Origin: a bacterium | GTDB taxonomy: Bacteria > Desulfobacterota > Deferrisomatia > Deferrisomatales > Deferrisomataceae | Direction of reading: 5' to 3' | DNA: 64,000 bases | Assembly (NCBI GenBank): GCA_027021615.1 | Contig: JALUTY010000083.1 | Location: forward strand, 1 to 64,000 | Part shown: positions 16,322 to 45,263 of the stretch, piece by piece | Position numbering within the stretch: the stretch's first letter is position 1 | Layout of the letters: each line of letters opens with the position of its first letter | Translations under genes and position numbers: made by a program | The notes under the pieces: model-generated | The model's input: the letters and a program-made list of their open reading frames with translations, nothing else | Told to the model about the DNA's origin: nothing | Database searches by the model: none

Positions 16322-16402
16322 TGGTTCCCGCCTCGACAGAGAATCCGGTAACAGGTTATCCGTAACGAGCGACGAGAGATTCACGACGCAGGCGCGTTCT
16401 TC

Positions 16403-16466
16403 CGTCCCACCGTCCCACCGTCCCACCGTCCCACCGTCCCACCGTCCTAACGTCCCAACGTCCCAA
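16403..16466. repeat. Octamer tandem array (CGTCCCAC/CGTCCCAA)n overlapping a gene end
   Basis: Eight head-to-tail octamers. Five are CGTCCCAC, one is CGTCCTAA (16443-16450) and two are CGTCCCAA. On the minus strand the CGTCCTAA unit provides the TAG stop of the 1,198-aa Ig-domain gene, and the following units encode its final GTLGR. The array lies in the gap before the giant cytochrome at 16321. Confidence 0.9.
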
Positions 16467-19400
16467 CGTACTCGTCCTTCCACACGCCTTCGTCGATCTC
16501 CACGTACCCCAGGGTGTCGCCCGCCTCCACCCGGTCGCGGCGGTGCTTCACCCTCCGCACGAACACCCCCTCCTCCGGGGCAGTGAGCGTCCATGTGGTC
16601 CTGCGCCCCTGCAATACCACCAACGGCTGCCCCTTCTCCACCTCGTCCCCCGGCTCCACCAGCCACTCCGACACCTTGATCCGGTCCCGTTCCTGGCGCT
16701 CCTCCAGCCGCGGCACGAACACCGTTCCGTAGATTCGCCGAAGCTCTGCTTCCGTGGGCGCTCGGCTCGTGTGCCGCGCCTCCACGATCACCGTGCCCGG
16801 TCGCCGACCCGCCCGGAACACCGCCTGCGCCTCCCCGTTCCGGTCCGTCAGCACCGTGTCCGGCCTCACCGCCCCCGTCCCACGCAGCACCTTGAACGCC
16901 ACCGGCACCTCGTGGCTCGGGTTGCCGTGGACGTCGGTCACCCGCACCGAAAGCCCTGTCTCGGTCCGGCCGTCCGCCGGCAGCCGCTCGGCCTCCGCCA
17001 GCAGGTCGACCTTGGCCGGCGCGTCGCTCATCAGTACGATCTGCACCGCCCCTGTCACCCCCCACTCCTCCGCGGATGCCGTAACGGTCACCGTGCCGAT
17101 CGCGGTGCCCGCCCGGTACAGGGCCTCGGCCATCCCTCGCTCGTCCGTGCGGCCTACGCGCAGCACCTTGAGCCGCCCGTTGTCGTTGCCCAGTGCAAAC
17201 CGAACCCGGGCGCCCTTGATGGGATTCCCCTGAAGGTCCCGCAGCACGGCCTTGATCCGGCTCGTGCTCCGGCCGTCCGCCGTGAGCTTTGCCGGCTCCG
17301 CCGTCACTCGCAGCGCTGCCCGGTCCTCAGCCCCCCTCTGGGCCCTCGGGTAGAGCTCGATCGCCACCGTGGAGGCCACGTAGGTGCTCAGCCACCCCAC
17401 CCCCACGTCCCCAGTGGTCAGGTCCTTGGCGATCACGAGCGCCGTCTTCGCCGCAAACCCGGCCGTGTACGTGGCCGTGACCTCCCCGAAAGCGTCCGTC
17501 ACCCCTCCCCAGCGCACCTCCACGTCGTCGGCGTCTTCCAACCGGGCTTCCTTTCCCTCGATCCGGCCCCCGCCCACCACGCCCGTGTACTCGCTGGTGG
17601 TCGACAGGGTGAGCGCCAGCTCGTGCCCCGACACCTTGTTTCCGTTGGCGTTCACCGCCTTGGCCACGACCCGGGTGGTGCTCCTTTGGTCCGCCGGCAA
17701 CAGCGCATCCCGCGCCGTCACCACGAGCCGCACCCGTGTGTCGAACGTGACCGGTCGGCCCGCGGGTCGTGTGGTCTCGTTGCCGGCTTCGTCGGCGAGC
17801 CGCACCACCACCGGCACCTCGGTGCCCTCGTCGTCCCAGTCCACGGTGTAGGTGCCCCGGTAGGTCCCTGGCTCCACCTCGGTCATCGGGACGTCCGCAG
17901 CCACACCCTCGATGGAGAACGAGGCGTACCCTCCCGCCTCCCCCTTCATCGTCACCGTGAGCACGTCCCCCGCCACCAGTTTCCCGCTGAAGCCCGCCAC
18001 CGAGAAGAAGTCGTTGTCCGCCGACGCGATCACCGGCGGGGTCGTGTCGTGCAGGGCGTCCAGGCCCACCACCGCGAGCTCCGGCCCGGCCCGCTCGGCC
18101 GAGCCATAGGCGTCGGCCACGTGCACCACCACCCGGTGCAGCGTCTTGGTCGGGCCCACGTCCCCGCCGGTCACGGTGTAGGTGCCCGTGTACCGGCCCG
18201 TGCGCCCCGCCTCCGGCAGGGGAAGGCCCGCCGCCAGGGTGCCGAGATCCGCCGTCACGGTGGCCCCGCTCTGGCCCGTCACCGTGATCGTTACGGTCTC
18301 GCCGGGCTTCACCGGTTTCCCGAAGGGCTCCACCGTGACCCCGGTGATGGCCGGGCCCTCGCCCGCAACCGCCTCGGCCGAAACGATGTCGCTCGCCTCG
18401 CTTCGGTTTCCCGCCCGGTCCACCGCCACCACGGCGTAACGGTATTCCAGCCCCGCCACCACGGCGGTATCCGTGAACGAGAGCTCCCGCGTGCTCTCGT
18501 AGGGATCGGCGGACAGGTCCGGGTCGGCCCCCTCGCCCCGGTAGATCTCGTAGTGGTCCACGTCGGCCGAGGGGCTCCTCTCCCAAGAGACCGCGATCTC
18601 CCCCGGCCATGGTGAGTCAGCCAGAATCCGGCCGGCCGGCACCGACTCAGGCGCGGCCGTGTCGATCGTGATCCCCGGGCCCTCCAGGCTCGCCGTCTCG
18701 CCCGTGGCCAGGTCGGTCAGGGTGCCGGTGAGGGCGAAGGTGCCGTTCACGCCGTCGGGCACCGCCACCCTGCCCACGTACACTCCGTCGTCCACCTCGG
18801 TCATGGACACCTCGGTGGCCAGCCCCTCGACGGCGAACGTGGCCGTCTTGTCCGCCGTTCCCCGCAGGGTCACACCGATCTCCTGACCCGCCCCGTAAAG
18901 CGCCTTCTCCGCCCCCACCGATGCCACCGAAAGCTCCGCCACGGTCACCGTGACCTCGGGGGGGTACTTGCTCTCCACGTCCCCGCCCTTGCCGTCGCCG
19001 AACACGGCCACGACCGAGTACCGGTAGGTCTTCCCCTGCTCGGCCGTGGGGTCGGTAAAGGTCAGGTCGTACACCCGCTCCGGTGTGAGCTTCTCGAACC
19101 GGCCGTTTCCCTCCCGGCGGTACACGAGGTACCCCTGGTTCACCCCCCGCTTCTCCGGCGGCTCCCATGAGAGGGCCACCCCCTCCGGCCCCACCGACGC
19201 CCGCAGGTTCCGGGGGTCGTACTCCGGCCCGTGCACCGCCGAAACCGGCATCGCCGCCTCCCCCACCGCGATCACGAAGTTGTCCAGCACCGCGTTCGAA
19301 AGGGGAGAGGTGGCCTCTTCGTCCCCGGGGCTCCAGTTGATCCCGAACCGAAGGGTCTTCGCCCGCTCCAGCAGGTCCCCGAAACGGTGCGGCACGTAAC

Positions 19401-20096: not shown

Positions 20097-23000
20097 TCAC
20101 TGCTGCGGCGCCAGCCGGTTCCACCCCGTGCTGCTGCTCTCCTTCCGGTGGCAGTTGTTTGCCTGCTGGATGCTCGGGTTCGAGTTCACCGTGCTCCAGT
20201 TGCTCACGTTCTTGTCCAGGCAGTTCGTGATCAGCAGCGCCGGCAGCCCGGTCGCGTGGGGGCTGTGGCACTTGGAGCACGGAAACTTGTGGGCTGTGGC
20301 GTTCACCCCGTCGTTGCCCACCCCCCCTGCGCCGTACCAGGTGGAGTACTGGGTTCCCTTTGTCGTACTGCCCGGCGTGCCGCCGTACCAACCGGTGTTC
20401 CGGGGCGGCGCGTACTGCCCCCCCGATCTCGCCGGCTTGAACCCGTTGAAGTCGGCCCGAAACGGCCCGTTATTGTCCGCGCCGCTGTTGTTCCCGTACT
20501 CGAACACATTCACCCCGTCCTGATGGGCCATGAAAAGCCAGGTGCTCTGCCCCCGCCGGGCGTCGAACAGGTCGATGCCGTTCACTCCCGTGCCCCCCAG
20601 GGTCGAGTTGGAGTGGCCGTTGGGGCCCCGCCACAGGCTCGAGCCGGTGTAGTAGTCCATGTTGTCCACGTCCGAGCCGTGGCACAGCGTGCACAGCCCG
20701 GCCGCCTCCGCCAGGGTGTCGTAAGCGGGGTCGTCCGTAGGACGGCCGGAGTTGACGTCGATGAAGTACCCGCCCTTGTTGCGCGACGTGGCATCCGCCC
20801 ACAGCCGGGGCACGGCATCGCTGAACTGCCCGTCTCCGCGGGGGCCGCTCGTGGAGAACCGGTTCCCCACGCTCAACGGGCCCGGCCCGCCGGTGGTCGG
20901 ATACGTGTACCCCGCAAGCGGCGGCATGTCCGGGGGGTAGGGGTTCCCCATCCACGTTCCCCGCAGGTGCGGCCGGCCCGACTGGGTGTCGTTCACGGCC
21001 TTGTTGAGGTCGTGCACATCGTGGCAGTACGAGCACCGGATCCCGCTTCGCGGCTCCAGCACCTGGGTGGTGTCCCGAATCACGTTGCCGTTGGTGTCCA
21101 CGTTGTTGGCCACGCTGGAGCCCGGGTTCGAGCCCACGGTAAAGTCCACCGAGTGCACCGATGTGATCCGCCGGCTCAGCCGGTAGCTCGGGTTCGTGTT
21201 CGAGTCGTGCTGATACCCGTCCTTCCGGTACATCCCCTGCGCCGGGTTGTTCGTGTTCACCCAGTACGGCGTCAGCGTGGTCCACGTGTCCGAGTAGAGC
21301 CAGCCGTAGTTGTACGAGCCGGCTGTGTTGCCGTTCACGTCTGGGATCTGCACCACCGGCCAGCTCGTCCCGTTCGTATCCGTGTTGTACCCCCACTCGT
21401 TGATCTGGTCGTTGGTGCCGTGGCAGTTCCAGCAGATCTCCGCCTCGGTCGTGCCGCTCGTCGCCGTGCCGCCCAGGAAGATCCCGCCGTGCTGGGTATA
21501 GTCGATCCCGAGCTGCGTCTGCATGTTCATCGTCGTGCCCGACCCGTTGTCCCGGTTGTTCCAGCTCGTCGGCGGCAGCGGCACCGTCACCGGGCCCGAG
21601 TGGCCCGTGTGGCAGTAGTTGCACTGCGTGTCCCAGTCGGTCCCGGGTCCCAGGCTCTGCGTGCTCACGGTTTTCAGGTGCGATCCGTAAGCCGTGGTCT
21701 TGCCCGTGGCGCTTCCGTCCTCCCACAGCACCTGGGGCGCGTTGGGGTCGGTCGTCCGGTCCGTGCCGTGACACAGCACGCACGAGGCCCCGAACTCCTT
21801 GGTATGCTTGTGGCAGTCGGTGCACCGGGTCGTGCTGTTGTGGCCGTCCCCCGAGGTCGAGGTGTAGTGGGCCGTGCTCGTGTGGCACACCTGGCAGATC
21901 CCGTCGTAGGGGGCTGAGCTCTTGGCGTAGTCGGTGCCGGTGGTGTTGCTCGTGAACACCGGGGTGACCGTAGTGGAGGGAATCCCGTACGTCCCGTCCG
22001 ACACCTGGGTCGCGTCCCGCTGAACCATGTAGATGTTTCCGGTGCCTCCGCTGGTCCGGTCGCCGTGGGGATCGTGGCAGTCCCAGCAGAAAGCTCCGCC
22101 GTCCGTGGTCTGGTCGTGCTTCGCACCGTAGTGATTCGCGTCCACGTCCAGGGTGGAGTTGACGCTCGCGTACCCCGTGCCCGCCCCATCCGGATCGTAG
22201 CCGGCGTCGCCCGAGCTGTGGCACACCAGGCACACGTCGTTCCATCCCCCGTCCTCTGTGGCGCCCCGACCCAGAACGCCCTGGTTCGCCAGCCGAAACG
22301 GGTTCGTGGCCGTTCCGTGGGTCACGCCGAAGTCGTGACAGTAGGCGCACCCTTTGGGGTCCGACGCCGGCCCGGCGAAGGCGGCCGCCGCGTTCCCGGA
22401 CACGTCATAAGTACTCGACGCCTTGCCGTGCCCCGAGTGGCCCCACTCGTCCGAGCTCAGGACCGCGGTGGTGCCGTTGTTGTACGTGAAGTCGTCCACG
22501 TCCGAGGTGCCCAGGTGGCAGTCGGCGCAGCTCAGGGTGCCACCCCAGGTGGCGCTGCCGCCGCCGTGGCACGAGATGCTCGAGCAGCTCGTGGGCACCG
22601 TGAGATCCCCCAGGGTGCTCACCGTGAAACTCACTCCCGCGCCCGTGTCCGGCGCCAGGTCGAAGGTCACGTCCGCGTGCTGGGTCCGATCCGTGATCGT
22701 GGTGCCCGTGGTCGTGGTGGGCTGGTGGCAGGTCTGGCAGCCGTAGTTGGCATGCTTCGGGTGGCTGTTCTTCTTGGTTCCCGCCTCGATCGCGGTGTCG
22801 TTGGCATACGACGGGCCGAAACCGTGGCAGGTGGAGCAGTCCACGGTGGTCGAGTCCCACGAGGCCGAGACCAACGGGGCCGTGTTCGCTCCGTCGAACG
22901 GGTCCGTGCGGTCCAGCCCCTGGCTGTGGCAGTAGGTGTTGGAGCAGGCGCCGTAGCCCGAGCCCACCGCGGTGTCCCCGGCGTAAGCGCTCGTGCTGCC

Positions 23001-25094
23001 CAGCCTGGCCTCACCCGTGTCGAAGGCCACGTCGGCCTGGCCGTCCACGTGGGCCGGGTAGATCACGTTCACCCCGTCGGCCGTGGTGTTCACGTGGCAC
23101 GTGTTGCAGGCAAACGAGTAGCCGCTGGCGTTCCCCGCGTGGGTCGGGTGGGCCAGGCTCCCCGGCGGGGCCGCGGCCGTGGCCCCGTGGCAGGTGCCGC
23201 AGGCCGCGGTGGCCGCGTCGTTCCACACCGGCGTGGTGTCCGTGCCCTGGCTCGCGGCCGGGAACAGGGTGGTGTCGTCGCCGTGGCAGTACAGGGCGGT
23301 GCAGGTGCCGTAGGTGGTGGTGTCGTTGGGTCGGCTCCCCTTGGCCAGGCTGTAGGCGCCGTTGGGGTTTGTGCCGTCGTAGGGCAGGTCGATGTCCACG
23401 TTGTTGCGGATGGTGCCCGGGCTCGTGGACCAGGTGCTGTCGTACTCGGTGCTGTCGTTGACGCCGGTCTCGTTGTGGGCCGTGCCCGAGGCGCCTCCGA
23501 GCTTACCGTGGCATGCCTCGCAGGCGAACCCGGCCGTGTCCACGTGCTTTTGGTGGGCGTTCGTGGCCGGCGGAAACCCGTGACACCCGTCGCACGAGGC
23601 CGCCCCCATCGTGGTCCCCTGTTTCCCGGCCCCTAAGTGCGTGGCGTGACAGCCCGGCCCGGTGGCGCAGGTGGTGTCGGCCAGGGCGCCGCCCTTGTGG
23701 TCGGTCTGCAGATCCGTGGTGAGGGATGTGTGACAGGCCACGTTGTCGCAAGCCCCCGTGGTCACGGCCGGGGTCCCCGCGCCCGGATTGAACCAGTCGC
23801 CGTCGTAGGTATCGCCCGCGCCGTCCGGCGGCGGGGCGCCGATCAGCCCCAGGTCGCCGGGAAGCTGCGTGTCCTCCCCCTGGATCGTGCGGCGGATCAT
23901 CGTGTCGTTCTGGAAGGTCGTGTCCGCGGCCGTGGTTCCGTGCTGGTCGTGACAGTCCATGCAGCCCGCGCTCCGGCCGGTGCTGGGGTCCCCCCCCGAT
24001 GCCGGCGTGGGAGTGTGGGCCGCGTGGCCTTTGTGGCAGGCCCGGCAGTTTCCGTAAAAGTTCGTGCCGAAGGTCGAGGTGCCGGCGGTGGTGTCCAGGG
24101 CCAGGTTCGCCTTCAGCCGCGGGGCCGGCTCGAAGGCGTTGTCGCCGTCCGTGTCGTGTCGGAGCTCGTGGCAGGTGTCGCATCCCCCCAGGATCCGGCC
24201 GTGGCCGTATGCGTAGTAGTTGTCCGTAAGCCCACCGTTCTCGTCCTGGGTGTGGCACACGTCGCACTCGTTCAGGGCCACCGTCTGGTTGGTGGCGGCC
24301 TGGCCGTTGTTCCCCGACGTGTTCTGGATGACCAGCAGGGCCTCCCCGTCCAGGCTGCCGTGGGCCCCATGGCACTTGGTGCAGTAGATCTGGCCCGTGG
24401 CATCGGCGTCGGCGCCTCCCGAGACCACGGCCACGTCGTTCAGGCTCAGCTTGGTGTTGGAGGCCGAGTGCTTCGGCGGGGCGGCGTAACCGTTCAGGCT
24501 TCCGCCGTCGGCGTCGTGGCAGTCGGCGTTCTGGCAGGTCTTGGTGGAGATCTCGGCATCCGTCGTGTCGGCCGGGGCACCCACCAGGGTCGTGTTCACG
24601 GCCAAGAGGGTCTGGGACGCATCCACCCCATGGATGTTAGGGTTGGCCGGGTTGGTGGTGTCGAAGCCGGTGACAGTGTGGCAGTCCAAGCAGTCGAAGG
24701 CCGTCGTGTCCTGGGTGAAGGTGCTCTTTGTCACGTCGATGGGGTGCTTCGATAGGGCCCCCGCCCCGAACAGATGGTCCACCCCCTTCATGCGGTCCCG
24801 CGCGATCCCGGAGGGGTTCGAGGCCGAGCGAAACGCCTCGTGGCAAAACAGGCACCGGATCGTGGGATCGGTACCGGTGATTCCCAGGTCGAACGTCTTC
24901 TGACTCTGCTTGATCAGATGGGTGCCCGGAACGATCTTGGAGGCGCTCACCGCATGGCACTCATAGCACTTCCACCCGGGGGGGTAGTGGGTTGCCCGGC
25001 TCTCTGTCGCCAACCCTCCCACCGCCACGGCAAGCCCCATCACAAACCACCGGATCTTCCGAAGAAACCCCATGGATCCCGCTCTCAAGCCCAT
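20097..25094 (-). CDS. Large multihaem c-type cytochrome, about 32 haem-type motifs
   Basis: 1,665 aa, with a signal peptide (about 1-34, ending TESRA) then THYPPGWKCYECH. I count 26 CXXCH, five CX4CH (CQNADCH, CDNVACH, CTALYCH, CSNTYCH, CSSISCH) and one CX5CH (CATGPGCH), the Geobacter CxxxxCH...CXXCH type. It is a paralogue of the 2,945-aa protein. The first 450 residues align nearly throughout, as do one internal block (NPNGAYSLAKGSRPNDTTTYG) and the C-terminal 450. The larger copy has extra central modules. The ATG at 25094 is preferred over 25073 because GGAGAGGA stands 6 nt upstream. It ends TNCLDKN...NNCHRKE, a Cys pair also present in the larger copy. Presumed exported haem wire in metal or extracellular electron transfer. 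Confidence 0.92.
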   Translation of the reverse strand: MGLRAGSMGFLRKIRWFVMGLAVAVGGLATESRATHYPPGWKCYECHAVSASKIVPGTHLIKQSQKTFDLGITGTDPTIRCLFCHEAFRSASNPSGIARDRMKGVDHLFGAGALSKHPIDVTKSTFTQDTTAFDCLDCHTVTGFDTTNPANPNIHGVDASQTLLAVNTTLVGAPADTTDAEISTKTCQNADCHDADGGSLNGYAAPPKHSASNTKLSLNDVAVVSGGADADATGQIYCTKCHGAHGSLDGEALLVIQNTSGNNGQAATNQTVALNECDVCHTQDENGGLTDNYYAYGHGRILGGCDTCHELRHDTDGDNAFEPAPRLKANLALDTTAGTSTFGTNFYGNCRACHKGHAAHTPTPASGGDPSTGRSAGCMDCHDQHGTTAADTTFQNDTMIRRTIQGEDTQLPGDLGLIGAPPPDGAGDTYDGDWFNPGAGTPAVTTGACDNVACHTSLTTDLQTDHKGGALADTTCATGPGCHATHLGAGKQGTTMGAASCDGCHGFPPATNAHQKHVDTAGFACEACHGKLGGASGTAHNETGVNDSTEYDSTWSTSPGTIRNNVDIDLPYDGTNPNGAYSLAKGSRPNDTTTYGTCTALYCHGDDTTLFPAASQGTDTTPVWNDAATAACGTCHGATAAAPPGSLAHPTHAGNASGYSFACNTCHVNTTADGVNVIYPAHVDGQADVAFDTGEARLGSTSAYAGDTAVGSGYGACSNTYCHSQGLDRTDPFDGANTAPLVSASWDSTTVDCSTCHGFGPSYANDTAIEAGTKKNSHPKHANYGCQTCHQPTTTTGTTITDRTQHADVTFDLAPDTGAGVSFTVSTLGDLTVPTSCSSISCHGGGSATWGGTLSCADCHLGTSDVDDFTYNNGTTAVLSSDEWGHSGHGKASSTYDVSGNAAAAFAGPASDPKGCAYCHDFGVTHGTATNPFRLANQGVLGRGATEDGGWNDVCLVCHSSGDAGYDPDGAGTGYASVNSTLDVDANHYGAKHDQTTDGGAFCWDCHDPHGDRTSGGTGNIYMVQRDATQVSDGTYGIPSTTVTPVFTSNTTGTDYAKSSAPYDGICQVCHTSTAHYTSTSGDGHNSTTRCTDCHKHTKEFGASCVLCHGTDRTTDPNAPQVLWEDGSATGKTTAYGSHLKTVSTQSLGPGTDWDTQCNYCHTGHSGPVTVPLPPTSWNNRDNGSGTTMNMQTQLGIDYTQHGGIFLGGTATSGTTEAEICWNCHGTNDQINEWGYNTDTNGTSWPVVQIPDVNGNTAGSYNYGWLYSDTWTTLTPYWVNTNNPAQGMYRKDGYQHDSNTNPSYRLSRRITSVHSVDFTVGSNPGSSVANNVDTNGNVIRDTTQVLEPRSGIRCSYCHDVHDLNKAVNDTQSGRPHLRGTWMGNPYPPDMPPLAGYTYPTTGGPGPLSVGNRFSTSGPRGDGQFSDAVPRLWADATSRNKGGYFIDVNSGRPTDDPAYDTLAEAAGLCTLCHGSDVDNMDYYTGSSLWRGPNGHSNSTLGGTGVNGIDLFDARRGQSTWLFMAHQDGVNVFEYGNNSGADNNGPFRADFNGFKPARSGGQYAPPRNTGWYGGTPGSTTKGTQYSTWYGAGGVGNDGVNATAHKFPCSKCHSPHATGLPALLITNCLDKNVSNWSTVNSNPSIQQANNCHRKESSSTGWNRLAPQQ

Positions 25095-25172
25095 CGCGAT
25101 TCCTCTCCGCCTACCGCACCCCTATCAGCCTTCCGTGGTGCTGCCACCGAATACCGAGGGGGCCGATTGGGG

Positions 25173-30223: not shown

Positions 30224-33200
30224 CTAATGACACGCGTTACAGAGGGTGTTGTCCGTGTCCCGCAGCCGCAGCATGTTGTTGTCGGGAATCTCCGTGTAGG
30301 TCCCGCCGCCACCGGAGCTCACGTCCACAGCCAGATCGGTCCCGTGGGGCTGGTGACACGTGGTGCAGGCAAGCTCCACGGCCTGGCCCGGGAAGATGTC
30401 GTCCAGCCTCGGCAGGTCCACCTGGCTCGGGCTTCCGATGGCGGTGTAGGTGGTATCGGCCCAGTACATGACGAACTCGTCCACGTCCCCCTCGCCCCCG
30501 GCCGGCACGTCGTAGTTCACCCCGGTGGGCTCGTTGTAGGCTCGGGTGAACGCCACGCCCGAGGGGTGGTGCAGGGGGTTTCCGTTGGGAGCCGTGTCGT
30601 TGTACGCGGTGTGGCACCGGGTACACAGGCCGTTGGCGTCCGTGGTGTTGTCCTGCAGGGTCTGGGTCCGCAACCGGTGGAGCGTCGCCGCGTCCGCCGG
30701 AAAATGAGCAAGCGTGTTGTCGTGGCAGGCGGTACAGTCGACGGGCGTGGTCACCCCGGGGGCCGAGTCGATGAACGGGTCCTCGGTCTGGATCGCGGCG
30801 TCGCCGTGGCCGCCCCGGGAGTAACCCGACCGGGTGCCGTAGTAGTTGGCCGCCGCGTCCGGAGCCGGCTTCGAGGTGTACACGGCGGTGTCGTTCCGGT
30901 CGTAGAGACGGATCTCGGCCTGGCTGTCGAGCCCGTCGTGGCACCCCGCGCACGCCTGGCTCCGGCCCAGGCCGTCGGAGTCCCCCGTGCCGTCCCCGGC
31001 AGAGGCGAGGTTCCAGTACAGCCCCTCAGCAGTGGACGGATTGCCGTGGCAGTCCACCCCGGTGCAGGTGCTGTCTGCGTTGTCCACCGCGTCGCCGGGG
31101 GGAGTGGTGGGCAGGGGGTTCCCGCCGTACGCGCCGGAGGCGGGGTCTCCCGTCATCCCGTCCCACGAGCTCAGGGTCCGTGGCTTCAGGTCCACGAAGG
31201 CCCGGCTCAGGATGCTCCACGTCCCGCCCAGCTCACCCGACTGGGCGTGGTTGGTGCTGGCCCCGGCGTCGTCCCCGTGGCACGGACCGCACAGCTCCTT
31301 GGCGTTGTCCGACGCTGGGAACTTGCCCAGGAGGAACCTCACGTGCTCGATGTGGGCCCCGCCCCCGCCGGTGTAGTTCTCGGCCACCAGGTTCGGATCC
31401 CCCCCTTCCAGCGCCCGGGCGGCCGGGGCCGGCGGGAACCCGTGGCAGCCGTTGCAGGCGGCCTGGGGGAACCCGATCAGGCCCTGGTTCGCGGTGCCCT
31501 GCCCCTTCTTGCCCCCGTGCCGATGGCACTGGGTGCAGTTGTTCCCCACCTGGTGGTCGGTGGACAGGGTCTGGCTCCGGTAGTTGTGGGACACGTTGTC
31601 GGCGCTGTTCTCCGTGGGGTTCTGGTGGCACACCGTGCACAGGTCGTCGGTGTTGTCCGTGTCGGGCTCGTCGAAACTGTCGGTGCCCGTCGTGTTCTGG
31701 AACACGACCGCGCTCCACCAGCTGGTGTTCTTCACGTCCGCCTCGGAGTCGGTAGGGGCATGCTTGATCTTCTTGCGGATCATGTAGATGTTGTGCTGGC
31801 CGTCGTCCGGGTCGCCCTGCCCCGAGCCGTGGGGGTCGTGGCACTCCACGCAGTCCTTGAAAAAGTTCATCTGCGATTTCAGGTCGTTGCCCGAGCAGTC
31901 CGTGAGCCCGACACTTCCTTCATGGGTGTACACCCACCCATAGGTCGTTTGGGTGCCGTCGGTGGTCTGGTCGTAAAAGTGGCAGGCGTTGCAGAATCCG
32001 ATCTTGGTGGTGGTGTTCTGGGCATCCTGGTTACAGCGGAGCTCGGTCGTCACGTCCGTGTTGTCGTGCATCTCGCCCGAGGTGCCAAAGTGGGTCGTCA
32101 CCCCGTCCGGGGTCTGGATCGTCCCGGTCTTGTAGTAGGTGGACCAGGGGGTGGTGTTCAGGTAGTCCGACACGTACCACGACCGGAAGTAGTTCCGGAT
32201 GGGGGTGATGTTGCCCAGCCTGGGGTTCCGGGCCGGGTCGGTGTAGTCGGTGTAGTCGATCTCGGTCGAGTCCGCCACCCCCCCGATCGTGAACTTGATA
32301 CCCACGGTCTCCCGAGGGTACGTGGCCCCCTTCACCACGTGGCCCACCCCGTCGGCGGTCTGCCGATCGCCGGGGAGGAGCTTGTAGGCAGTGGAGCCGT
32401 GGTAGAGGTGGCACTCCAGGCACGGCACCCGGGGCTCGGGGTTGCCGGACCAGGGAAAGCTCCCGGTGACGAGCCCGTTGCCCCGGCCGTGGCCGGCCTC
32501 GAAGAAGTAGCCCCGGTTCCAGGTGGTTCCCAGAGGGTTGTTGATCTTCGGCGGGAGCCGGGTGCCCGCCGGAAACGTTATGGTTCCATACGTGGGGTCG
32601 GAGACCGAGAAAGAAAACCCGATGGTAAAACCGATGGTCAGGGTTTGCCCGCTCGCGTCTTCCCCGTCGTGGCACGAAAGACAGAACTGATCGTAATACT
32701 TCAGGCTCTCCCTCGTCGAGAAGGTGGTCCCCCGCGAACCCGTGTAGAAGTTCCCGTCGTCGTCCTTCAGGATCGCGTTCGTGGGCCCCCCCCGGGTGTC
32801 GTGACACTTCAGGCAGCCGTTATTGTCGGCCACTGTCATGTCCTGGGTCACATCGTAGTTGATGGTGTGGAAGCTGAGCAGATCGTTCCCAAGCACCGCC
32901 CCGATGTGGCCGAACTCGCTGTCCACGTGATCCACGTTCGCCAGGCTCCCGGCCGAGTTCGGGTCCCGGCCGGTGGAGTGGCAGTCGAGGCACCGAAAGA
33001 AGTTGGTGTTGTGGGGCCCCTGGTGGCAACCCCCGTTCTTCTGGAGACAGTTCTGGGTGGCGTTGCCCACGTTGGCGTGGACGTCGGCGTGGAACGGGAA
33101 CACCGGCGTGGTGCTTGCGGGATCGGGAGGGTTCACCCCCTCCACCGTGAACGCGGCTCCCCCGTTTCCCTGGGAGTCGTGGCACCCATAACACACGACC

Positions 33201-34141
33201 CGGTCATTGGTGCCGTCGTACCCGGTGGTGGCGAAGTCGCTCGTGGCGTACGGGTTGACCGGGGTGTCCGTCCCGTTGATGATCAACGCCTTGTTGCTCG
33301 CGCCGGCACCGGCCGCCGCGTGGGGATCGTGGCAGTCGTAGCAGGGCAGCTTTCCGGTCAGGTTTCCCCGAGCGGCGAGGTTGTGCCCGCCCCCCGGCTG
33401 GTTGTAGTCGGTAGCCACGTCCGTGGCCGTGATTCCCGTAGAGTAGGGCGGGCTGGGGCTCCCATCGTGGCACACGAAGCACAGAAGCTCGCTCGAGGTA
33501 AGGGACGGCTTGGTCCAGTCCACCCCTCCCCCGCTCGAGGTGGCGCCGCCGTTGGGGCCGTAAGGTGCCGTGAGCCGGGGGGGGTTGTCCGCCAGGTTGT
33601 TGGCGCCCGGGTCCACGGCGCCGATCACGATGCTGTGGTGGTTGGGGTAGCCGTCGGTCGCGGACTTGGTGCACTCCGTGGCCGGGGTCAGGTCCGGCCC
33701 GGGATTCGTGGCGTTGTCCGTGTCGCCGTTGTGACAGTCGTTGCAGAGAATCCGGGTGGAGCTCGGGTAGCTGGCGCTGTCCCCCCCCACGTCCACCGGG
33801 TGGGCGCTTCCGTTGACGCCACCGGCAGCGGTCGCGATCTCGTTGGCGATATCCCCCGAGGAACCGTGACAGTACGAGCAGTCCAGGGGCTCGCCTCCGT
33901 CCCACTGGCCTCCGCAGTAGAAGTCCGTCGTGTACAGCGCATCCTGGACGTTGTCGCTCAGGATGTTCCGGGACCCCGGCACCACCTTGGTGGAGCGAAG
34001 GGCGTGGCACGACAGGCACGGACGCCCCAAGGAGTGGTCGGCCCAAGCGGTACCCCCGAGTCCCACCACCACCGCCAGAGCCACCACGATCCGTGCAGAA
34101 ACCCGGGCGAACGAACACGCCGTTCGGGAGTTTCGGTGCAT
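30224..34141 (-). CDS. Large multihaem c-type cytochrome, about 23 haem-type motifs
   Basis: 1,305 aa with an N-terminal signal region (about 1-34, ending GTAWA) then DHSLGRPCLSCH. By my count it has 21 CXXCH, one CX4CH (CTGVDCH) and one CX6CH (CLQKNGGCH). Most motifs are followed by PHG or DP, as in multihaem cytochromes that carry paired CXXCHxPH ligands. It is poorer in CX4CH than the other two giants, so it belongs to a different branch. The protein ends exactly at its last haem motif (LCNACH-stop). Start is the ATG at 34141 (MHRNSRTACSF), with AGGGAGCGGG about 10 nt upstream. The frame is open further up inside the neighbouring gene. It lies 20 nt after the Reg_prop lipoprotein gene, so it is almost certainly cotranscribed. 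Likely a periplasmic or outer-membrane electron carrier. Confidence 0.92.
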   Translation of the reverse strand: MHRNSRTACSFARVSARIVVALAVVVGLGGTAWADHSLGRPCLSCHALRSTKVVPGSRNILSDNVQDALYTTDFYCGGQWDGGEPLDCSYCHGSSGDIANEIATAAGGVNGSAHPVDVGGDSASYPSSTRILCNDCHNGDTDNATNPGPDLTPATECTKSATDGYPNHHSIVIGAVDPGANNLADNPPRLTAPYGPNGGATSSGGGVDWTKPSLTSSELLCFVCHDGSPSPPYSTGITATDVATDYNQPGGGHNLAARGNLTGKLPCYDCHDPHAAAGAGASNKALIINGTDTPVNPYATSDFATTGYDGTNDRVVCYGCHDSQGNGGAAFTVEGVNPPDPASTTPVFPFHADVHANVGNATQNCLQKNGGCHQGPHNTNFFRCLDCHSTGRDPNSAGSLANVDHVDSEFGHIGAVLGNDLLSFHTINYDVTQDMTVADNNGCLKCHDTRGGPTNAILKDDDGNFYTGSRGTTFSTRESLKYYDQFCLSCHDGEDASGQTLTIGFTIGFSFSVSDPTYGTITFPAGTRLPPKINNPLGTTWNRGYFFEAGHGRGNGLVTGSFPWSGNPEPRVPCLECHLYHGSTAYKLLPGDRQTADGVGHVVKGATYPRETVGIKFTIGGVADSTEIDYTDYTDPARNPRLGNITPIRNYFRSWYVSDYLNTTPWSTYYKTGTIQTPDGVTTHFGTSGEMHDNTDVTTELRCNQDAQNTTTKIGFCNACHFYDQTTDGTQTTYGWVYTHEGSVGLTDCSGNDLKSQMNFFKDCVECHDPHGSGQGDPDDGQHNIYMIRKKIKHAPTDSEADVKNTSWWSAVVFQNTTGTDSFDEPDTDNTDDLCTVCHQNPTENSADNVSHNYRSQTLSTDHQVGNNCTQCHRHGGKKGQGTANQGLIGFPQAACNGCHGFPPAPAARALEGGDPNLVAENYTGGGGAHIEHVRFLLGKFPASDNAKELCGPCHGDDAGASTNHAQSGELGGTWSILSRAFVDLKPRTLSSWDGMTGDPASGAYGGNPLPTTPPGDAVDNADSTCTGVDCHGNPSTAEGLYWNLASAGDGTGDSDGLGRSQACAGCHDGLDSQAEIRLYDRNDTAVYTSKPAPDAAANYYGTRSGYSRGGHGDAAIQTEDPFIDSAPGVTTPVDCTACHDNTLAHFPADAATLHRLRTQTLQDNTTDANGLCTRCHTAYNDTAPNGNPLHHPSGVAFTRAYNEPTGVNYDVPAGGEGDVDEFVMYWADTTYTAIGSPSQVDLPRLDDIFPGQAVELACTTCHQPHGTDLAVDVSSGGGGTYTEIPDNNMLRLRDTDNTLCNACH

Positions 34142-34161
34142 GATGTTTCCCGCTCCCTCGC

Positions 34162-35418
34162 TCAATAGCTCTTCACGAGTCGGTTCAGACCGTTGGCCGT
34201 ACCCACCCACACCTCGTCACCAAACACGTACAGGCTGGTGATCCGGTTGTCCGTCAATCCGTCCTCGGTATAGAAGTTCGTGAACTCGAACCCGTCGAAC
34301 AGACCGAGGCCCTTCTTCGAGCCGAACCACACGAGATCCCCGTCCACAGCGATGGCGTTCACTGTGGAGTGGGGCAGGCCTTCCGCGATGTCGTAGATTT
34401 TCCACGAGCCCTCCTCGTACACGCTCACACCGCAGCACCCCCCGAGGTAACAGGTCGATCCCTTTACGGCCAGGGTGTACACGAAGTTGCTCGCGATCCC
34501 GTCGGCCACGGTGAACGTGCGCCACCCCTTCCCGTCGAACCGGTACACCCCTCGGTTCGTCGTGCCGATCCACAGGGTCTTCCCGGAGAAACCAAAATCG
34601 GACACATTGTTCAGAACGGTGCCCGGCTTCATGGTGCTCCGGTCCTTCCATCGCTCACCATCGAACGTGAGCACCCCCCCGTGCATGGTGCGGGCGGCCA
34701 CCCAGAGGAGGCCGTCGTGCACCCGGAACCGGGCGTTCACCAACTTGACCTTTCCCTCCCGCTCTTTGGTGGCCCAGGAGACTCCGTCCCAGATGCTCAC
34801 ACCGGCGTCCGTTCCCACGTAGACGAGGCCTTTGTACTTCGCGATGTCGGTGACCCGGTTCGATGCCAGGCCGTCCTCGACTTTTGTGACGATCCAGTTC
34901 CCTTCGGCAAAGTTCAGCCGGGCCACCCCTCCGTCCGCCGTGCCCACCCACGCGTCGCTCCCGTCCACGTACAAGGCCGTGATCCGGTTCGAAGGCAGCC
35001 CGTTATCCGTGGTGTACCGTTGCGCAACCCGAACGTTCGGGACCGCCACCCGCTCGGAGGCAGGAGCGGTCTGCGGCAGCGGCTTTGCCGCAGGGGAAGG
35101 GGGGGCCGGAGAGGAGGGCCTGGACTTCAGCTTTGCCTCCCGGGGCGACCGGACCTCCTCCGGGACCGGGGGGGGGGAGACCCCCTCGATGTCCTTCTGG
35201 ATCAGGGGCTCCAGCCGAGCCGCCCGCGCCACCGCCGCTCTCCAACGCTCCTCCGGAGATCGGACCGGCGGGGGCGGAGGAGCCTCCAACACGGGGGGGG
35301 ACGGTTCGAGGACCGGGGCGACGGTGGGCCCGGCGGGCTCCGGCCGTGGGCGGGAGGCTGCGCAGGCTGCCAAGACCACGCACACGGTCGTCAGGAGCGC
35401 GAAACGACGCATGGACAT
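34162..35418 (-). CDS. Reg_prop-type beta-propeller lipoprotein
   Basis: 418 aa. The signal peptide ends in LAAC with Cys19 as the lipidation site. A Pro-rich linker runs to about residue 140. Five or more blades follow of the two-component-regulator-propeller type, with the recurring DGLxSNRVT...VGTxxG pattern: NGLPSNRITALYVDGSDAWVG, DGLASNRVTDIAKYKG, DGIASNFVYTLAVKG, EGLPHSTVNAIAVDG and DGLTDNRITSLYVFG. In hybrid sensors such blades form the periplasmic ligand-sensing head. Here no kinase or membrane helix follows, so the propeller stands alone. The ATG at 35418 has AGAGG 7 nt upstream and gives the lipobox. Likely anchored in the outer membrane next to the cytochromes. Confidence 0.83.
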   Translation of the reverse strand: MSMRRFALLTTVCVVLAACAASRPRPEPAGPTVAPVLEPSPPVLEAPPPPPVRSPEERWRAAVARAARLEPLIQKDIEGVSPPPVPEEVRSPREAKLKSRPSSPAPPSPAAKPLPQTAPASERVAVPNVRVAQRYTTDNGLPSNRITALYVDGSDAWVGTADGGVARLNFAEGNWIVTKVEDGLASNRVTDIAKYKGLVYVGTDAGVSIWDGVSWATKEREGKVKLVNARFRVHDGLLWVAARTMHGGVLTFDGERWKDRSTMKPGTVLNNVSDFGFSGKTLWIGTTNRGVYRFDGKGWRTFTVADGIASNFVYTLAVKGSTCYLGGCCGVSVYEEGSWKIYDIAEGLPHSTVNAIAVDGDLVWFGSKKGLGLFDGFEFTNFYTEDGLTDNRITSLYVFGDEVWVGTANGLNRLVKSY

Positions 35419-37121: not shown

Positions 37122-38732
37122 TCAATGGCTGTGGCACTCGCTGCACAGCGGATCCAGGTAATCCCAGCTCGTAGGGAACTTCCGGAGCATGGCCTGGGTG
37201 TTTTCCGTGGCCGACGGGGGGCTCGGCGCGACGCCCCCCTTGTAGTCCCAGTGCGTGGACGCCGTGCCGTGGGGATCGTGGCAGGTCAAACACATGACCC
37301 AGCTGGACCCCAGCGTTGGCCCGTACCCCCGCGCCTCGATCGCCCCCCCCGTCCCGCTGTAGAACGGCAAAATCCCCGTTTCAACGTAGGCGTCCGGGGG
37401 GGTGCCTGCGCCGTTGGGATCGCTGAAGGGGTTTGCGATGTCCATGAACCCTGAGGTGTACTCCCGCCACAGGCTCATGCCCACGCCTGCGTTCGCGTGG
37501 AGCGGCTCGGTGCTCCCGGTCCAGCTGCCGTGGAAGAAGTTCTTCGCCAAGATGGCATTGTTCGGGTCCCCCAGATCCGTCTCCACGTGGCAGCCGTAAC
37601 ACACGTTCATCGCGAACTCGGTGGCGGTGTCGGCCCCGGCCCCGAACAGGAAGTCGTCTGCAAGAAAACGGTTCTTGGTCCCGTGGGGGTTGTGGCAGCC
37701 TTGGGCGCCCGATCCCCCCGCAAGGCAGGTGACGTCCATCTGGTTGCCTTCGATGCTCGTCGCGTACCCGTGGCCGTTGGTCTCGTAGTAGTCGAAAAAG
37801 GGCGGGGAGTTCGTGTAGGGAGCCCCCGCGTTGACGTCCTTGGGGGGCACGGCAGGGACAAGCCAGGGGGCAGCGGTCTGCTGGGTGGATGGATCGGACC
37901 GGTCCGAAGGGGGGACCTGGCCCGTGGGTACCGGCCCGTTGAACTGCTGGAACGAGGCGTTGGCTGCACCCTCGTCCACCCCGTCGTGACACGACAGACA
38001 AAAGCTCTGGTACGCGGAGAAGTCCGTGGCCCGGGCCACCGGGTCCCCTGCGGTTACGCCTGCCGAGGCCAGGTCGTCCGGATATACGAGAAAGGCGGCG
38101 TCACTGGGGTGCTTCGTCCCGTCGCCGTGACACTTCTTACACTCGTTCAGGCTGGCGTCCTCGGTGGTGTTGAAATCGCCGTCCACGGCATACCGGATGT
38201 TGTGCTGGCTGAGGATCGTGGCATCGTTCACGGCCCCGATGCCGTTGAAGAACCGGTCGACCTCGAAGCTCGTCTCGGTGGTGTCGTCGAACAGCCCGCC
38301 GTTGGCCGAGGTGGTGTGGCACACCAGGCAGTCGTCGTTGGGGATGACGAACGACTTCTTGTGATCGTGGCAGGTGCCGCAGTTGTCGTACTTGGTGTCG
38401 GTGGTGTGAGGATAGGGCGGAGGCGTCACCCCGGTCACCGAGTCCCAACCGGCCCCGGTGGGCAGGGTGCCGTCGTGGCAGTCCATGCACAGCCGCGCCG
38501 GATACGTCGTGTACCCGGTGTTTCCCACGCGCGCCCAGAGCCGCTGGTCCTGGGCGCCGTGGGGCACGTGGCACTCGGCACACACTCCCCCCCCCGTGAA
38601 TCCATTATCCACGAAGTCATGGGGGCTCCCTACCATGGCGGCGGGCGCGGAGGCGGCGAGGAACCCGGCGAGAACGAGGGGGCCCCAAAGCCCGATCAGG
38701 AGAGCTCGCGGCTTCCGCTGGCCTGTTCCCAT
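37122..38732 (-). CDS. Nine-haem c-type cytochrome
   Basis: 536 aa, first gene of the cytochrome block. Signal peptide about 1-31 (ending AAMVGSPH). Nine CXXCH motifs: CAECH, CMDCH, CGTCH, CLVCH, CKKCH, CLSCH, CYGCH, CLTCH and CSECH. A tenth candidate, CLAGGSGAQGCHNPHG, has CX9CH spacing followed by the NPHG seen after true haem sites. Opens FVDNGFTGGGVCAECHVPHGAQ, typical of small outer or periplasmic cytochromes. The ATG at 38732 has GGAGGA about 10 nt upstream. A TTG at 38756 is less likely. A possible terminator lies at 38789-38829, so the block promoter would be within the 60 nt in front of this gene, or transcription reads through from the anti-sigma gene. Confidence 0.87.
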   Translation of the reverse strand: MGTGQRKPRALLIGLWGPLVLAGFLAASAPAAMVGSPHDFVDNGFTGGGVCAECHVPHGAQDQRLWARVGNTGYTTYPARLCMDCHDGTLPTGAGWDSVTGVTPPPYPHTTDTKYDNCGTCHDHKKSFVIPNDDCLVCHTTSANGGLFDDTTETSFEVDRFFNGIGAVNDATILSQHNIRYAVDGDFNTTEDASLNECKKCHGDGTKHPSDAAFLVYPDDLASAGVTAGDPVARATDFSAYQSFCLSCHDGVDEGAANASFQQFNGPVPTGQVPPSDRSDPSTQQTAAPWLVPAVPPKDVNAGAPYTNSPPFFDYYETNGHGYATSIEGNQMDVTCLAGGSGAQGCHNPHGTKNRFLADDFLFGAGADTATEFAMNVCYGCHVETDLGDPNNAILAKNFFHGSWTGSTEPLHANAGVGMSLWREYTSGFMDIANPFSDPNGAGTPPDAYVETGILPFYSGTGGAIEARGYGPTLGSSWVMCLTCHDPHGTASTHWDYKGGVAPSPPSATENTQAMLRKFPTSWDYLDPLCSECHSH

Positions 38733-38788
38733 GCTTACCCATCCTCCACCACGCAAGCTGGAGCGGTCCCACCCCGTTTCGGGCGCAC

Positions 38789-38829
38789 AAAAACCCAGCC
38801 GCGCACCGTGGGCCGCCCCGTCGCGCGGC
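38789..38829 (-). terminator. Hairpin plus T-run between anti-sigma gene and cytochrome block
   Basis: On the minus strand GCCGCGC (38823-38829) pairs with GCGCGGC (38798-38804), and TTTTT follows at 38789-38793. The loop is long, 18 nt, and GC-rich. If active it would separate the sigma/anti-sigma genes from the cytochrome block. Confidence 0.4.
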
Positions 38830-38840
38830 GCCTCCCAAAG

Positions 38841-41632: not shown

Positions 41633-42160
41633 TTGCGGTTTCTCTGCACTGTCCTCGTCGCACTGCTCTGTTCCACCCAACCGGCGCTGGCCCTGTTCGG
41701 TGCCGGGAAAAAACCCCAACCGGGCTCGGACGCGCCCACGTTCAACGCACCCCTTCTGGTGGGGGGCGACTTCGACCTTGCCCCCTATATCGGCACCAAC
41801 GCGATCCTCCTCGACTTCTGGTCCATCTACTGCGTCTCGTGCATCCAGGAGATGCCGAAGCTGGTGGACATCTACAACCGGTACAAGGACCAAGGGCTCG
41901 AGGCGGTGGCCGTGAATCTGGACAGCTTCGGTACCCGACGGGTCAAAAAGTTCGTGAAGGGTCTCGATTTCAGGGTGACCTACCCGATCGTGATCGACAA
42001 ACGCCGGGAGGTCGCTGCCAAATACGGCGTGAGCGTGCTGCCCACCACCGTGGTGATCGGCAAGGACGGCAAAGTGACCTACTACCACGTGGGGTACTCG
42101 CCCGGCGACGAGGAAGAGATCGAGCAGAAGGTGAAGGAGGCCCTGGGCGCAGGGCAGTGA
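41633..42160 (+). CDS. TlpA/ResA-type thioredoxin
   Basis: 175 aa with a signal peptide (about 1-21, ending PALA). The thioredoxin fold has FWSIYCVSCIQEMP (redox motif CVSC), VNLDSFG and the cis-Pro loop VSVLPTTVVIGKDGKV. The start is a TTG at 41633, with GGAGGA 5 nt upstream. No ATG or GTG lies at a sensible position. It is followed after 34 nt by a second thioredoxin of the same class, and together with the one at 36575 there are three TlpA-like proteins flanking the cytochrome block. The family exchanges disulphides in the periplasm, commonly for cytochrome c maturation. Confidence 0.85.
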   Translation: MRFLCTVLVALLCSTQPALALFGAGKKPQPGSDAPTFNAPLLVGGDFDLAPYIGTNAILLDFWSIYCVSCIQEMPKLVDIYNRYKDQGLEAVAVNLDSFGTRRVKKFVKGLDFRVTYPIVIDKRREVAAKYGVSVLPTTVVIGKDGKVTYYHVGYSPGDEEEIEQKVKEALGAGQ

Positions 42161-42194
42161 CCCACAACCCCCCCTCGGCAAGGAGTGACGCGCG

Positions 42195-42767
42195 ATGAAG
42201 CGTTCCTTGATCTCTCTGGTGATCGTGGCCGCATTGGCCGCCACGGTCGTTCCCCCGGCCCCTGCGACCGCTGGGGAGGCCACGGCGTTGAAAGGGAAGA
42301 AGGTGAACTCCAACGGCCTGTTGGCGGTGGGGTCCAAGGCGTTGCCGTTCACACTGAAAGATCTGGACGGCAACACGGTGAGCCTGGACCAGTTCCAAGG
42401 CCGCAAGGCGGTGCTTGTCACCTTCTGGTCGTTCTTCTGTGGCCCATGCCGGGAGGAGATCCCCCTGCTGGACCAGATCCTGAAGAAGTACCAGGACCAG
42501 GGTTTCGAGATGCTGGCCATCAACCTCGACGGCCCCAAGCTCGCGAAGGCGGTCCGCCGGTACGTGGACTCCAACGGCTTTTCGTTCCGCGTGCTGTGGG
42601 AAGAGATCGACGGGGTGAGCTACAAGACTGCGGATGCCTACGGCGTCGCCGGCACCCCGAGCCTGGTGCTGGTGGGCAAGGAGGGCAGAGTGCTGTGGAC
42701 CCACGTGGGCCGGGAGGAACCGGCGAAGATCGAGGCCGTGATCCGCAAGGCCCTCGGGAAGGGGTAA
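42195..42767 (+). CDS. TlpA/ResA-type thioredoxin
   Basis: 190 aa with a signal peptide (about 1-26, ending PATAGEA). The redox motif CGPC lies in FWSFFCGPCREEIPLL, with NLDGPK and the cis-Pro loop GVAGTPSLVLVGKEGRV further on. The N-terminal part before the fold (NGLLAVGSKALPFTLKDLDGN) is the usual AhpC/TSA/TlpA lead. AAGGAG stands 8 nt before the ATG. It forms a two-gene unit with the thioredoxin 34 nt upstream. A terminator-like hairpin follows at 42802-42830. Role probably thiol reduction in the periplasm, linked to cytochrome assembly. Confidence 0.88.
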   Translation: MKRSLISLVIVAALAATVVPPAPATAGEATALKGKKVNSNGLLAVGSKALPFTLKDLDGNTVSLDQFQGRKAVLVTFWSFFCGPCREEIPLLDQILKKYQDQGFEMLAINLDGPKLAKAVRRYVDSNGFSFRVLWEEIDGVSYKTADAYGVAGTPSLVLVGKEGRVLWTHVGREEPAKIEAVIRKALGKG

Positions 42768-44173: not shown

Positions 44174-44270
44174 GCTTGCCTTCCCTCGGGGCTGTGGTAG
44201 CGTGGGTTCACGCGTCCGTCCGCGTCCGTGACGCGGGGTCCGGGGCAACGAGGCGCGAGGGGGTGTGCCG

Positions 44271-45263
44271 ATGATCGACACGATCCTGTACGTGGAGGAC
44301 GAGCCCGGTCTGGTTCGGCTGGCCGAGGTGGTGTTTCGGAAGATCGGCTTCGTGGGGCGCATCGTGTCGGCGGCGAGTCTGGCCGAGGCTCGGCTCGCTT
44401 TGGCCGGCATCCGAAAAGGGGGGTCCCTTCCCAAGCTGGTGGTGACCGATCTCGGGCTCCCGGACGGCTCGGGCCTCGAGCTGGTCCGCCACATCAAGGA
44501 GGACCCAAGCCTGCGCGCCGTGCCCGTGGTGGTGCTGTCGGGTTCGGCCACCCCGGAGACCGTGACCGAGGCGTACGCCCTGGGGGCCAACGCTTTCCTG
44601 TCGAAGTCGCCCGCCGCCGGCGACCTCCTGTCGGCCATGGAGGGGCTGGTTCGGTGCTGGCTCCGGGAGGTGGAGCTGCCCAGCCCCCGGATCGGCGACC
44701 GGCTCCAGTGGGCCCTGGCCCGGGCCGTGGGCTACGAGACCCGGGTGGCCCAGATCTACCTGGAGCTGGCCCGGCGGCTCCGGGCGGACCCCGAGGCCCT
44801 TCGGTTCTGGCTCGATCTGGCCCTGGCCGAGGGCAACCACGCCAACCTCCTCCGGTTCTTCGAGTCCCTGGTGGAAGACTCCGAGGCCCCCGCGTCCGTG
44901 CTCGATCGGCTCGAAGGCCAACTCATCAAGGTGGAGACCTGTGTGGCCGGGGTCGAGATGGGCCTTGGTGCCCGGCCGGAACTGGACCGGGGCGGAGCGC
45001 TGGAGATCACCCTGCGCATCGAGGAGAGCCCCAGCGAGGAGCTGATCCTGGCCGGCCTCGGGGTCCTCCTCCCCTCCGCGCCGGGGGCGGTGGCCACCTT
45101 GGCCGAGAGCCTGGCCGAGCACGCGGCCCACATCGCGGACGGGGTCCGACGGATGACCCCACGGCAGGACCTGTGGGCACGGGCCGGGGCGTTCCTCACC
45201 CGGGCACAGGCGCTGCGGGACCGGTTTGCAGGGGAAGGGGCCGACGAGTCCCACGCCCTCTGA
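44271..45263 (+). CDS. Response-regulator receiver fused to a ferritin-like helical domain
   Basis: 330 aa. Residues 1-120 form a receiver domain with acidic residues Glu9-Asp10-Glu11 (YVEDEPG), phosphoacceptor Asp60 (VVTDLGLPDGSG), Ser90 and Lys112 (FLSKSP). The C-terminal 200 residues are helical and look ferritin- or rubrerythrin-like, with YETRVAQIYLELARRL, then ALAEGNHANLLRFF giving an E...ExxH pattern, and a later ESLAEHAAHI. The ATG at 44271 follows GAGGGGG by 7 nt. A GTG at 44265 is in frame but closer to it. No kinase is adjacent. A receiver controlling a di-iron-type or stress-sensing domain is an unusual combination. Confidence 0.8.
   Translation: MIDTILYVEDEPGLVRLAEVVFRKIGFVGRIVSAASLAEARLALAGIRKGGSLPKLVVTDLGLPDGSGLELVRHIKEDPSLRAVPVVVLSGSATPETVTEAYALGANAFLSKSPAAGDLLSAMEGLVRCWLREVELPSPRIGDRLQWALARAVGYETRVAQIYLELARRLRADPEALRFWLDLALAEGNHANLLRFFESLVEDSEAPASVLDRLEGQLIKVETCVAGVEMGLGARPELDRGGALEITLRIEESPSEELILAGLGVLLPSAPGAVATLAESLAEHAAHIADGVRRMTPRQDLWARAGAFLTRAQALRDRFAGEGADESHAL

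Follow-up and report, generated by a model that had tools for sequence, protein, structure and literature searches.

A receiver domain joined to a divergent ferritin-like domain in an orphan response regulator found in one genus of the Deferrisomataceae

Introduction

The last domain of an ordinary response regulator binds DNA, acts as an enzyme or serves in docking. A gene in a stretch of 64,000 nucleotides from a member of the Deferrisomataceae (this whole stretch is called the window throughout the paper) encodes a receiver (REC) domain followed by a long helical region. What does such a region do behind a receiver? With a ferritin-like output, phosphotransfer would directly govern metal or redox chemistry or be governed by it, as c-di-GMP enzymes are coupled to hemerythrin. 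In the literature searched, no fusion of a receiver with a ferritin-like or rubrerythrin domain was described; mention in reviews of response-regulator outputs or in domain databases is possible. The reading that we favour, with slightly less than even confidence, is an orphan response regulator in which a linker of seven residues connects REC to a divergent ferritin-like domain of the rubrerythrin clan that acts as a metal or redox module.

Results

The features of the gene are compiled in Table 1. The ATG at 44271 is a likelier start than the alternative in-frame GTG at 44265, because both genus relatives have Met at the same place. Scanning the protein against Pfam, PF00072 was the only family found at E <= 0.01, with 57.7 bits against a gathering cut-off of 30.2, and a PF00072 search of the own genome picked out exactly the stretch 44283..44639 within the window. 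The E9/D10 acidic pair, D60, S90, F109 and K112 were all there, with roles that we assume to be those of their counterparts in CheY. Judged from these residues, the receiver appears competent for phosphorylation. The clear receiver with phosphoacceptor Asp60 proposed in the initial annotation thus turned out to be complete. In the whole-chain AlphaFold2 model the REC part reached a pLDDT of only about 49-72, because the model alignment had no REC homologues; none for a deeper receiver alignment were found in the viral contigs searched. The last REC helix (residues 116-133 in the model secondary structure) ends just before the VELPSPR linker, and a tail after helix E closes the chain.

Table 1. 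Features of the response regulator gene, in window coordinates
Feature	Coordinates	Strand	Basis or remark
Orphan response regulator gene	44271..45263	+	330 aa; stop codon within coordinates
Receiver (REC) domain, residues 5-123	44283..44639	+	Pfam PF00072 E 1.5e-15 and PF00072 search of own genome
Asp60 phosphoacceptor codon	44448..44450	+	Residue numbering; role presumed from the REC family
Seven-residue linker VELPSPR, residues 134-140	44670..44690	+	Model secondary structure; precedes helix A
Helix A, residues 141-169, with E156	44691..44777	+	AlphaFold2 models and alignment of relatives
Helix B, residues 174-200, with FW179-180 and E187xxH190	44790..44870	+	AlphaFold2 models and alignment of relatives
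Extra helix X, residues 208-234, between B and C	44892..44972	+	AlphaFold2 models
Helix C, residues 240-251 and 255-266, with E251 and P254	44988..45068	+	Models and alignment
Helix D, residues 271-295, with E283, H284 and H287	45081..45155	+	Models and alignment
Terminal helix E, residues 299-320	45165..45230	+	AlphaFold2 models

The response regulator is an orphan. Neither another receiver nor a HATPase_c domain was found within the 64-kb window, which holds one of the 115 PF00072 matches of the genome, and the nearest of 89 HATPase_c matches lies 21 kb downstream at C83:66455. Neighbouring genes shared with G002, named there by similarity to the genes of the window, encode a sigma factor, two thioredoxin-like proteins, a PmbA/TldD-type peptidase, an acetyltransferase, a RecN-like protein, NAD kinase and, upstream on the opposite strand, a glycosyltransferase; no histidine kinase was present among the flanking genes of the window or G002. 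The window itself carries two adjacent thioredoxin-like/AhpC-TSA proteins at 41633-42767 (+). A possible giant multihaem cytochrome is encoded at 7487-17326 (-), where an open frame of 3280 aa contains 52 CxxCH motifs, and further frames on the same (-) strand contain 26 (20100-25121), 21 (30227-34216) and 9 (37125-38840) such motifs.

In the AlphaFold2 models residues 141-320 were almost entirely helical and formed a six-helix domain with helix C interrupted at residues 252-254. Using 68 relatives, the whole-chain model reached a mean pLDDT of 76.8, with the C-terminal part mostly >85, and the domain-only model (residues 132-327) a pLDDT of 88.9 and a pTM of 0.85. The two antiparallel helix pairs of the ferritin-like superfamily were present in the predicted model. 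Its top VIA match was 1vjx (TM1526 from Thermotoga, a ferritin-like diiron-carboxylate protein) at Z 13.0 over 143 residues (2.7 A) and at Z 12.7 over 144/149 (2.8 A), a level near 13 that may mean no more than a common helical arrangement. Nearly all of the 50 VIA matches listed were titled ferritin, bacterioferritin, Dps or YciF. Foldseek with the helical domain gave no match at E <= 0.001, the best being 3ezu (E 0.11).

Taken alone, the helical domain of the window falls under every family cut-off. Rubrerythrin (PF02915) was the sole other Pfam name in the protein, and its 13.3 bits (whole protein) or 15.1 bits (domain) missed the gathering score of 22.8. A phmmer search of the domain against PDB sequences yielded nothing significant (best 2oh3, E 0.17). 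A profile of 69 domains, i.e., the window domain and its 68 stand-alone relatives, matched the encapsulated ferritin 5n5e (4e-5), 2oh3 of COG1633 (3.4e-4) and 1vjx (1.3e-3) among the PDB sequences; weaker matches were 3ezu (0.084), symerythrin (0.085) and unrelated proteins, among them a DARPin (0.017) outranking 3ezu. PF02915 was matched at E <= 0.1 by 53 of the 69 domains (best 1e-5) and, among the 83 full frames, by 48 at E <= 0.01. For PRK13654, the model of the AcsF diiron cyclase, 35/69 domains gave a match at E <= 0.1 (best 4.6e-5), with no match by the window domain itself, which BLAST connected to the nearest stand-alone relative (G029) at E 1.4e-6. When the profile was compared directly with those of 23 classical rubrerythrins and 15 others, there was no match (E 0.15 to 0.87), and the C-terminal rubredoxin domain of classical rubrerythrins is lacking in the window protein. 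The initial annotation had described the region as ferritin-like, suggested looking for a rubrerythrin or hemerythrin match with AlphaFold, and named the lack of a four-helix bundle or of conserved Glu/His ligands as evidence to the contrary. The bundle was borne out by the confident model together with the profile matches, the best match of the domain model was to a diiron-carboxylate protein, and both bundle and conserved Glu/His residues were found.

These residues are E156, E187, H190 and E251. The window and both genus relatives have all four, as do 68/68 stand-alone loci, which had been collected with peptide patterns containing E187, H283 and D284, so that invariance at these positions is partly selected; E156, H190, E251 and E254 were absent from the patterns. 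The same four were found in all 13 rows obtained by profile (8 of them identical to one of the 68), and they persist at ~20% identity. The Glu on helix A and the ExxH on helix B (E156 ... E187xxH190), which correspond to the "E...ExxH" of the initial annotation, are more than a chance pattern, because they are invariant in all 68 loci and all 13 profile rows. In the second half of the bundle, the helix C Glu is present as E251, and helix D reads E283-H284-xx-H287 in place of an ExxH. At these positions the stand-alone relatives (n=68) carry E254, H283, D284 and D, E or N at 287 (40/25/3), versus P254, E283, H284 and H287 in the window. P254, H284 and H287 are common to all three genus members, and position 283 is D or E. 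Every helix-D position invariant in the 68 relatives (283, 284, 291, 293) is changed in the window.

By analogy with the ligands of rubrerythrin, E251-E254 and D284-287 would make up the second half-site. The helix C and D positions are putative ligands, assigned from the alignment. The first half-site looks canonical, while the second seems either remodelled to a histidine-rich form or decayed. The ferritin-like superfamily includes members with an incomplete metal site. From the conserved residues, metal binding by the helical domain is likely. A di-iron centre in the window protein can only be inferred, because the canonical second half-site is absent. Of the di-iron-like pattern claimed initially, the conserved E156/E187xxH190, along with E251, stood, and the part that did not hold is the second half, with helix D lacking an ExxH and P254 replacing Glu. 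The initial interpretation is supported in part; the gating of an iron or redox site by phosphorylation, raised there as well, is hypothetical.

The REC fusion was found in all three available genomes of one genus, i.e., in 3/12 genomes of the class; the genus copy in G001 ends at a contig end at residue 309. Of 59 relatives searched, 4 had a match, three of them the genus, and in a sample of the phylum 16/395 genomes had a match, the same three being the genus. Scanning 84,980 species genomes by peptide pattern yielded 68 loci, largely from Binatota and "Deltaproteobacteria" MAGs; these patterns were drawn from the stand-alone form and are escaped by window-type sequences, so that fused relatives beyond the phylum were possibly missed. 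Among 83 full frames (the window, 14 from the phylum profile search and 68 from the pattern scan) a receiver was detected by Pfam scan in the window only and in 0/82 others. The rarity of such fusions, suggested at the outset, is thus reflected in their occurrence in one genus. Fusion of REC to ordinary rubrerythrins was considered as well: among the matches listed, the ten with open frames of at least 268 aa were inspected by eye and none starts with REC. A tblastn search against plasmids and phages found no match to the window protein, and a relative was likewise without a plasmid match. Single-sequence phmmer, an insensitive search, gave no sign of a separate receiver partnering the stand-alone relatives, showing one weak REC-like frame among the 7915 frames of the 68 loci.

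Three pairwise comparisons within the genus gave dN/dS values of 0.16-0.20 in REC and 0.31-0.66 in the helical domain. As judged from these ratios, the gene is under purifying selection within the genus; the ten codons of the tail after residue 320 were without conservation there. Both a chance match and an artefact were rejected in view of the genus orthologues and the dN/dS values, and the observation of a receiver fused to a ferritin-like domain is confirmed. In a tree without outgroup, which gives no direction between the fused and the stand-alone form, the genus branch measured 4.2 substitutions per site and its placement had weak support (0.67-0.73).

The stand-alone relatives (L012-L024 and L026-L093, ~180-200 aa, from Binatota-type MAGs) share the motifs FW..MA..EA.H and HDLG.LSYMIE. 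Searched against Pfam and NCBIfam they gave no named family over cut-off, only weak Rubrerythrin or AcsF matches, and they form a ferritin-like family that these libraries leave unnamed. Within 5 kb of the stand-alone gene, 25 of the 68 loci (L055 and 24 others) carry a frame of one blastp cluster, the longest member of which was identified as ribonuclease Y (TIGR03319, E 1.9e-207); the identity of neighbour clusters was taken from cluster representatives only. At L055 a ZapA-like gene lies further upstream. At L131 and L132 a rubrerythrin-like domain is followed by a membrane part of ~150 aa, which to us resembles VIT1-type iron transporters.

Discussion

Beyond a ferritin-like domain with four conserved ligands, what follows is what we infer. 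In a response regulator with a metal or redox module, the helical domain would bind one metal ion or two, iron being the likeliest, in a remodelled site with a second half rich in histidine (H284 and H287, with E283). As the partner of the phosphorylation switch it would respond to metal, redox state or oxygen, and it is presumably neither an iron store nor a classical rubrerythrin peroxidase. A histidine kinase encoded elsewhere in the genome would phosphorylate D60, this would alter the dimer interface or the contact between REC and bundle, and the way in which the phosphorylated protein binds its partner would depend on the state of that metal site. Across the short linker at residues 134-140, D60 phosphorylation may shift the bundle, or the metal state of the bundle may bias REC. 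In our estimate it is somewhat unlikely that, in one polypeptide, D60 phosphorylation controls the bundle's metal or redox state and is in turn controlled by it, the second half-site having been re-invented in a histidine-rich form; if true, this would found a new class of response regulators that integrate metal or redox state. Regulation tuned in this way would suit an organism with very large multihaem cytochromes.

Other explanations account for parts of the same data. A degenerate, metal-free bundle, in which the ferritin-like fold is kept and phosphorylated REC uses it solely for dimerisation or docking, is in our view rather unlikely. It would agree with the replacement of E254 by Pro, where helix C is broken, with the alteration of every helix-D position invariant in the relatives and with the strong divergence of the domain, but E156, E187, H190 and E251 survived while much else changed, and new His residues at 284 and 287 are found in all three genus members. 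We regard it as quite improbable that the protein is an enzyme, a di-metal oxidase or peroxidase whose activity REC switches. The protein comes without rubredoxin or any other electron-transfer domain and misses the canonical second half-site, even though the relatives match the diiron enzymes AcsF and rubrerythrin, and receivers on metabolic enzymes are an established class according to a review (PMC5847659).

An unrelated helical bundle, e.g., an output of HPt-like or coiled type in which the ExxH arose by chance, has a very small likelihood. The confident model with its VIA match, the profile matches to three ferritin-like structures and the 53 of 69 domains matching PF02915 at E <= 0.1 argue against such a bundle, with which the uniformly non-significant single-sequence searches and the missing profile match to classical rubrerythrins would be compatible.

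Coming back to a metal or redox module behind a receiver, several known systems invite comparison. The TM1526/COG1633 proteins (1vjx, 2oh3) resemble the window protein in the helical fold, the Glu on helix A, the ExxH on helix B and the profile matches. They have no REC domain, while the window protein differs by its extra helix X, the broken helix C and a helix D without ExxH. The stand-alone family of Binatota and "Deltaproteobacteria" has the same domain by profile and BLAST, including E156, E187, H190 and E251, but lacks REC and retains E254, H283 and D284 where the window has P254, E283 and H284. A comparable helical domain also occurs in a signalling protein, the GGDEF protein 3ezu of Geobacter sulfurreducens (NP_951600.1), which ranked first in Foldseek and gave a VIA Z of 11.2 over 149 residues; this likeness is not significant by Foldseek (E 0.11) or by the sequence profile (0.084), and in 3ezu the helical domain is N-terminal with GGDEF as partner. 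The ligand of 3ezu is listed as unknown (PMC2954221).

Domains attached to REC may act on the input side as well as on the output side, as noted in the review on archaeal two-component systems (PMC5847659). Bacterial hemerythrin switches likewise carry a helical domain inside a signalling protein: Vc Bhr-DGC and the Ferrovum Bhr-HD-GYP are described as signalling proteins switched by redox state or oxygen through a non-haem di-iron domain, the state of the hemerythrin domain biasing the c-di-GMP enzyme (PMC8846402, PMC10101095). In contrast to the window protein, they belong to another family with another ligand set, and their effector is c-di-GMP turnover; here the partner domain is REC.
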